NCBI GenBank assembly: GCA_024685655.1
Contig: JAIKVO010000071.1
Coordinates: 1-38,376, forward strand
DNA: 38,376 nt
Origin: Treponemataceae bacterium
Lineage (GTDB): Bacteria; Spirochaetota; Spirochaetia; Treponematales; Treponemataceae
Direction: 5' to 3'
Numbering within the stretch: position 1 is the first letter of the stretch; the number at the start of each line of letters is the position of its first letter. Below the pieces are notes generated by a model. The model saw only the letters and a list, made by a program, of their open reading frames with translations, was not told the origin of the DNA and did not search any database. This document shows positions 37,416 through 38,376 of the stretch, piece by piece. The position numbers and the translations under genes were made by a program.

Positions 37416-38189
37416 ATGAAGAAATTACTTACAGTTGTTTGTTTGATTCTTATTGCTGCGACATTGTTCGCTGGCGGAAAGAAAGAGAAAGTTGTAATAA
37501 ACTCAGCTGCTGATCTGGAGGGTAAAAAAATCGGTGTCCAGACAGGTACGACAGGTGAGCTTTTTGTTACAGAGGATGTGAAAAACGCTAAGGTCGTTGG
37601 TTTCAAGACAGGTATGGATGCCGCGCTTGACCTTAAGAACGGTGCAATTGACCTTATCGTTCTGGACGAGCTTCCTGCGAAGGAAATCGTAAAACGCAAC
37701 TCTGACCTTACGATAGTTGATCTTGACCTTGCTATTGAAGAGTATGCTATCGCTATCAAAAAGGGAAACACAGAGCTTCTTGACTCAATCAACGCGACAA
37801 TTGCTACAATGAAAGCAAACGGTGATTATGAAAAGCTCGTCAATGCATTTATGCCTGTTGATGGAAACATCACGATTCCTGCAGAAGTCGTTTCTAGCGG
37901 AACAGAAATCGTAAAACTCGGCACAAACGCTGCGTTCCCTCCTTTTGAGTACGTTGAAGGTTCTGATATCGTTGGTTTCGACATCACGATGGGACAGAGA
38001 ATCGCCGCAGATTATGGCAAGAAGCTTGAAGTTGTGAACATGGAGTTCGACAGCCTTATTCCGGCTCTTTCATCCGGTGCAATCGACTTTATCGCTGCTG
38101 GTATGTCTGTAACAGAAGAGCGCAAGAAGAACGTTGATTTCTCTGAAGCATATTACGCCTCTAAGCAGGTTGTAATAGTCCGCAAATAG
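37416..38189 (+). CDS. Amino-acid ABC transporter substrate-binding protein with permuted domain order
   Basis: Signal peptide MKKLLTVVCLILIAATLFAGG, then ADLEGKKIGVQTGTTGE...YAIAIKKGN (normally the second half), then LGTNAAFPPFEY...VDFSEAYYASKQVVIVRK-stop (normally the first half); SD GGAGG. Confidence 0.85.
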   Translation: MKKLLTVVCLILIAATLFAGGKKEKVVINSAADLEGKKIGVQTGTTGELFVTEDVKNAKVVGFKTGMDAALDLKNGAIDLIVLDELPAKEIVKRNSDLTIVDLDLAIEEYAIAIKKGNTELLDSINATIATMKANGDYEKLVNAFMPVDGNITIPAEVVSSGTEIVKLGTNAAFPPFEYVEGSDIVGFDITMGQRIAADYGKKLEVVNMEFDSLIPALSSGAIDFIAAGMSVTEERKKNVDFSEAYYASKQVVIVRK

Positions 38190-38199
38190 TTTTGTTTAC

Positions 38200-38247
38200 A
38201 AGGGGTGCCGATGCTGTTTGTGTGGTTTCGGCTGCCCCTTTTTTTTG
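38200..38247 (+). terminator. Rho-independent terminator after the binding-protein gene
   Basis: AAGGGG-t-GCCGA...TCGGC-tg-CCCCTT followed by a T-tract. Confidence 0.75.
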
Positions 38248-38323: not shown

Positions 38324-38376
38324 ATGTTTCAATCCATTTACGATACGATGATAGCCGGCGGACGCTGGCATTTAAT
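38324..38376 (+). CDS. Start of a probable amino-acid ABC transporter permease (partial at window end)
   Basis: Open frame MFQSIYDTMIAGGRWHL... resembling N-termini of HisM/GlnP permeases, after a binding-protein gene. Only 17 codons visible. Confidence 0.4.
   Translation, partial: MFQSIYDTMIAGGRWHL

Follow-up and report, generated by a model that had tools for sequence, protein, structure and literature searches.

A Treponemataceae gene encodes what we judge, with a probability of roughly 0.88 and on the basis of sequence comparison and structure modeling, to be a functional, naturally circularly permuted receptor of a polar-amino-acid ABC importer. The swap of the two receptor halves is common to many gut and rumen bacteria, and the relatives of the gene suggest that a single importer family probably switches its receptor topology repeatedly and reversibly. 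In that reading, the canonical order would have given rise to the permuted order (CP1), and CP1 both to a second permuted order (CP2) and to a renewed canonical order with a vestigial linker tail, the ligand residues and permease partners being kept throughout. The window, by which we mean the whole stretch of DNA analyzed, is an entire contig of 38,376 bases from a MAG of 293 contigs and ends 187 bases past the gene. It contains the following features.

37416 to 38189, + strand: gene for the permuted substrate-binding protein, a 257-aa open reading frame from ATG to TAG, stop included, with full-length colinear homologues
37416 to 37490, + strand: putative signal peptide MKKLLTVVCLILIAATLFAGGKKEK, from the sequence and alignment A1
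37497 to 37850, + strand: former C-terminal half, now first (aa 28-145; SBP_bac_3 positions ~97-130; segment models Ca and Cb)
37851 to 37907, + strand: new linker MPVDGNITIPAEVVSSGTE (aa 146-164) connecting the former C and N termini, from alignment A1 and the linker listing
37908 to 38186, + strand: former N-terminal half, now last (aa 165-257; SBP_bac_3 positions 2-92; segment models and residue mapping)
38200 to 38240, + strand: hairpin in the RNA with a U8 run behind it, in the gap separating the binding-protein gene from the permease (-22.4 kcal/mol, z -3.7)
38324 to 38376, + strand: start of the cognate ABC permease, 17 codons, MFQSIYDTMIAGGRWHL, matching the permease of the relative L024

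The window protein scored 121.4 bits against SBP_bac_3 (PF00497; curated cut-off 26.4) in two stretches, with the profile positions 2-92 on protein residues 167-257; the whole-genome scan located positions 97-130 upstream of them. The N-half to C-half order that is canonical for PF00497 was absent, and the C half preceded the N half instead. The matches from Pfam, NCBIfam and PDB each consisted of two stretches in reversed order, the C part at aa ~28-147 and the N part at aa 167-257; the sole PDB sequence covered colinearly was 6h30, where the match took in the C half of SBD1 followed by the N half of SBD2. A chance match was rejected on the E-values of the profile and PDB matches (1e-35 to 1e-47). 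As both kinds of match come in reversed stretches, the swap is real and located at the first hinge, just as the original prediction had it, and the HMM alignment to SBP_bac_3 that had been suggested as a check did not put the segments back into the normal order. The new linker MPVDGNITIPAEVVSSGTE, also part of that prediction, proved to be real and homologous across Treponemataceae.

For comparison across genomes, all fetched open reading frames were classified with segment models for the N half, the early part of the C half (Ca) and the remainder of the C half (Cb), giving the classes CP0 (N-Ca-Cb, canonical), CP1 (Ca-Cb-N, as in the window) and CP2 (Cb-N-Ca). The window protein is Ca-Cb-Nh with one copy of each segment, rotated, and with the old termini linked by residues 146-164; it holds the segments for one binding domain, and Pfam and the segment models placed no permease domain in the chain. 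Its former C-terminal half carries the GTTG motif (T45) and, by residue mapping, the predicted ligand-binding Asp D84 within VLDE, and its former N-terminal half carries GTNAAFPPFEY, TEERK with the predicted ligand-binding Arg R236, and the final hinge strand QVVIVRK. The signal peptide lacks the lipobox Cys that alignment A1 places in most relatives (e.g., LTGCSK).

Scanning 84,980 species genomes gave 340 relatives, of which 80 contigs were retained, and the permuted order was present in all 80 of these public contigs. Together with the full-length colinear homologues found in all seven of the genus genomes searched (65-100% identity), this answers the question, raised with the original prediction, of whether related genomes keep the same order. 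Independent Treponema assemblies showed the permuted order at 61-95% identity and Clostridia at ~43-46%, and the carriers include the isolates T. bryantii XBD1002, B25 and NK4A124, Treponema sp. JC4 and C6A8, and T. lecithinolyticum ATCC 700332. Colinear permuted-order matches were found in 51 of 393 sampled Spirochaetota genomes, the order being verified with the segment models for genomes fetched as loci, and in 22 of 391 sampled genomes of the class to which the Clostridia locus L096 belongs; these counts describe samples and are not frequencies.

The segment models identified the second permutation, CP2, in eight Clostridia-side genomes (L167-L173 and L181). The CP2 proteins start with LKILDTEYA..., continue with the C-terminal helices, a linker and the N half with an intact first hinge, and end in ...VDCVIIDSEPAKAYVEANN; their break lies inside the C lobe. 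The CP2 genes mostly precede a permease and an ATPase. CP2 is also listed for L186-L188, again on the Clostridia side.

Canonical order was found in three Treponemataceae genomes (G288, G389 and G299), at loci where the gene adjoins the homologous permease. The canonical-order homologues, all nested in the permuted Treponema clade, are as follows.

L133, 2417 to 3205
L134, 4196 to 4957
L135, 4423 to 5238

The genes of these three loci have a permease downstream and no ATPase. In the careful SBP tree, from which the long-branch rows L136, L141, L142, L165 and L181 were left out, they fell inside the permuted clade with L036, L122 and L143 (100/98), and a tree built independently from the permeases gave them the same position (100/100), as did the concatenated data (100/99, then 100/98). 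The tail at their C terminus, (F/Y)MPLDG(D/E)VKI, matches the opening of the permuted linker, MPxDGxIxIP, and in the linker listing a tail of the MPLDG type was missing from the other canonical relatives. Such a remnant is what recombination between two tandem CP1 copies would leave, and we regard it as very probable, judging from these sequence comparisons, that L133-L135 represent a reversion from the permuted to the canonical order. The opposite view holds that the canonical order of L133-L135 is ancestral and that the permuted order arose several times independently. It gains from the weakness of the deep tree nodes and from the AU test on the SBP alignment alone, where a placement of L133-L135 outside the Treponema-side permuted clade was not rejected (P = 0.46), but it is made unlikely by the nesting of the three among permuted sequences in the SBP, permease and concatenated trees and by their permuted-linker tail. 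The concatenated AU test also speaks against it, rejecting a grouping of the permuted Treponema-side rows without L133-L135 (P = 0.018), for a group named post hoc, after the tree had been seen. On the Clostridia side, the canonical L178 may be a second reversion; it has no linker tail, and its placement in the SBP tree is weak.

The probable origin of the permuted order is that an ordinary binding-protein gene was duplicated in tandem and its outer halves were then lost, and later rounds appear to have produced CP2 in Clostridia and the return to the canonical order in some Treponemataceae; we infer both this route and the direction in which the order changed from the sequences of the relatives. 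The duplicated intermediates that a duplication-and-trimming route needs exist among them. L139 and L140 have two canonical binding-protein genes ~20 nt apart before one permease and ATPase, a tandem arrangement that is plausible as the parental state for the permutation, and L179 (a 772-aa open reading frame) and L180 (1555-3819, - strand) contain tandem CP1-CP1-permease fusions. Fusions of a single CP1 unit with the permease in one open reading frame were found in L138 (1690-3201), L161 (1462-2991), L162 (1354-2934) and L164 (793-2289).

The residues expected to contact the ligand are retained in the permuted proteins. D84, R236, G44 and T45 were invariant in all 40 members of alignment A1, and when aligned after reordering, D84 corresponds to HisJ D161 and GlnH D157 and R236 to HisJ R77 and GlnH R75, T45 being mapped to HisJ T121. 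In HisJ/GlnH-type receptors the Arg holds the alpha-carboxylate and the Asp the alpha-amino group of the ligand. AlphaFold2 run with A1 gave a mean pLDDT of 90.3 and a pTM of 0.78 with no segment below 50, and its single-chain model scored 84-93 per block, linker region included. With Foldseek in sequential order, binding proteins were retrieved at TMq 0.30-0.49, with the tandem 6h30 ranked first by E-value; sequential values below 0.5 are expected if the fold is right and the order rotated, and they do not in themselves prove closure into one domain. In the predicted protein, the chain would start at the first strand past the first hinge crossing and build the second lobe, then cross back and reach the old C terminus, from where the new linker of ~19 residues would lead to the old N terminus, the chain ending as the old first hinge strand. 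Since every element of the "Venus flytrap" is present once, the protein should close on an alpha-amino acid with the usual Arg and Asp, and it would deliver the ligand to the permease encoded just downstream. Amino-acid binding and transport by the permuted protein are what we infer from these conserved sequence features.

The downstream permease start, which had been called probable, was borne out: MFQSIYDTMIAGGRWHL is identical in all 17 amino acids to the start of the PF00528 permease in L024, a relative at 95%. With the contig ending 187 bases past the gene, the permease of the window is cut off, and a genome search did not find the remainder elsewhere in the 88% complete MAG. Among the relatives, a PF00528 permease follows the gene in 71 of the 76 loci with room for one, and in 63 there is an ABC ATPase too. 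L033, L045, L055, L056, L059, L084 and others have the permuted binding protein and a permease with no adjacent ATPase, which suggests a shared or distant ATPase, and L141 and L142 encode divergent permuted binding proteins that are orphans without an adjacent permease. The gene had also been credited with a promoter and a terminator of its own. A strong, GC-rich hairpin with a U-run does exist at 38200-38240, overlooked by the terminator scan, but it lies between the gene and the permease start at 38324, and for that reason a role as an attenuator or stabilizer within the operon is more likely than one as a terminator. The promoter part of the claim was not supported, the promoter scan giving no sigma-70-type promoter on the + strand.

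Order conservation, invariant contact residues, the permease/ATPase context and the confident predicted fold together support the functional permuted protein first proposed. That the permuted proteins have lost transport and act as sensors or decoys, or are degenerate paralogues, seems improbable: some permuted relatives (L141 and L142) do have no neighboring permease and distant permuted-like tandem units are found inside larger proteins (L179 and L180), but the contact residues are invariant, the SBP-permease-ATPase order is conserved, and the L179 and L180 proteins themselves end in a permease domain (L180 by Pfam and L179 by sequence). We give still less credence to closure between two copies in place of one monomeric domain. 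Swapped dimers do occur in TmArgBP-like proteins, and engineered TmArgBP domains were among the PDB matches; however, the AlphaFold2 single-chain model is confident throughout, linker region included, and the ~19 residues of the linker should suffice to join the adjacent termini. An artifact of the window MAG, with two tandem binding-protein genes falsely joined by assembly or binning, had to be excluded given that the MAG is split into 293 contigs, that the gene lies only 187 bases from the end of its own and that tandem binding-protein genes occur in the distant relatives L139 and L140, but this reading, foreseen in the original prediction, is refuted by the identical order and linker in at least 80 independent contigs, isolates included, at 61-95% identity among Treponema assemblies and ~45% for Clostridia and with the linker homologous across Treponemataceae.

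A functional single-chain receptor also makes redundant the other idea put forward at the outset, that the swapped halves complement a second copy. One chain holds each half once, and the one canonical receptor among the SBP_bac_3 matches of the genome, on contig C8, is accompanied by a permease and an ATPase of its own, so complementation is unnecessary; complementation by another half-gene was rejected, both halves being in one chain and no half-genes being seen in the genome. The further SBP_bac_3 matches in the genome lie in longer open frames, on C17 (495 aa) and C230 (1079 aa).

As a rule, circular permutation is a deep event that shows only when remote structures are compared. In this family, the permuted, twice-permuted and apparently de-permuted homologues retain ~40-75% identity and have common operon partners, which makes the permutation steps traceable in sequence and opens the forms to direct comparison of their folding, hinge motion, affinity and docking to the transporter. 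If true, reversible topology switching would provide a natural series of circular permutants that includes a reversal. Amino-acid biosensors could find ready-made scaffolds in natural permutants of this kind, which are single chains with their termini at the hinge. Permuted proteins can be missed by automatic annotation and sequential structure search, or be labeled as ordinary. That permuted binding proteins recur in treponemes and gut Gram-positives, both here and in the case of Tp0684 discussed below, raises the question of why they do so.

Among known systems, the SBP_bac_3 receptors (GlnH, HisJ, ArgT, ArtJ, TmArgBP and AncQR; PF00497/TIGR01096) have both halves, the Arg and Asp, the signal peptide and the permease/ATPase in common with the window family, whereas the window protein differs from them in having its halves swapped at the first hinge, a new linker and its termini at the hinge. 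With the SBD1-SBD2 tandem of GlnPQ (6h30), the window protein shows a colinear alignment that takes in the C half of the first domain and the N half of the second, the pattern to be expected from duplication in tandem and later trimming. 6h30 consists of two complete canonical domains in 460 aa, while the window protein amounts to one domain's worth; L179 and L180 are the permuted counterpart of the GlnPQ layout.

Permutation has been described in other binding proteins. OpuAC is related by circular permutation to ProX, both being glycine-betaine-binding proteins, and to the molybdate-binding proteins, all of type II, as found with CPSARST at less than 24% sequence identity and detectable only by structure (PMC2395249); OpuAC and ProX differ from the window family by ligand class. 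Tp0684 (TpMglB-2) of Treponema pallidum, termed "Type Ic / cluster Bc," is described in the accessible parts of its source as a naturally permuted cluster B glucose receptor with relatives in treponemes and gut Gram-positives, the moved piece comprising about the last 70-100 residues and showing little sequence conservation (PMC4990184). On that description it resembles the window protein as a natural permutation of an ABC-importer receptor with a strikingly similar host range. It has the cluster B sugar-binding fold, whereas the window protein matches SBP_bac_3 instead, with no MglB-type family among its Pfam or NCBIfam matches. The same parts of the source contain no mention of a second order or a reversion for the Tp0684 cluster (PMC4990184). 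In the literature searched, whose incomplete coverage makes absence a weak argument, we found no description of permuted SBP_bac_3 or glutamine-binding proteins, or of any family that combines several permuted orders with a reversal. The initial impression that no such case had been described thus stands for the SBP_bac_3 family and not for binding proteins at large, natural permutation having been described in other clusters. New here are the CP2 order in some Clostridia, the apparent reversion in three Treponemataceae genomes and the permease fusions.
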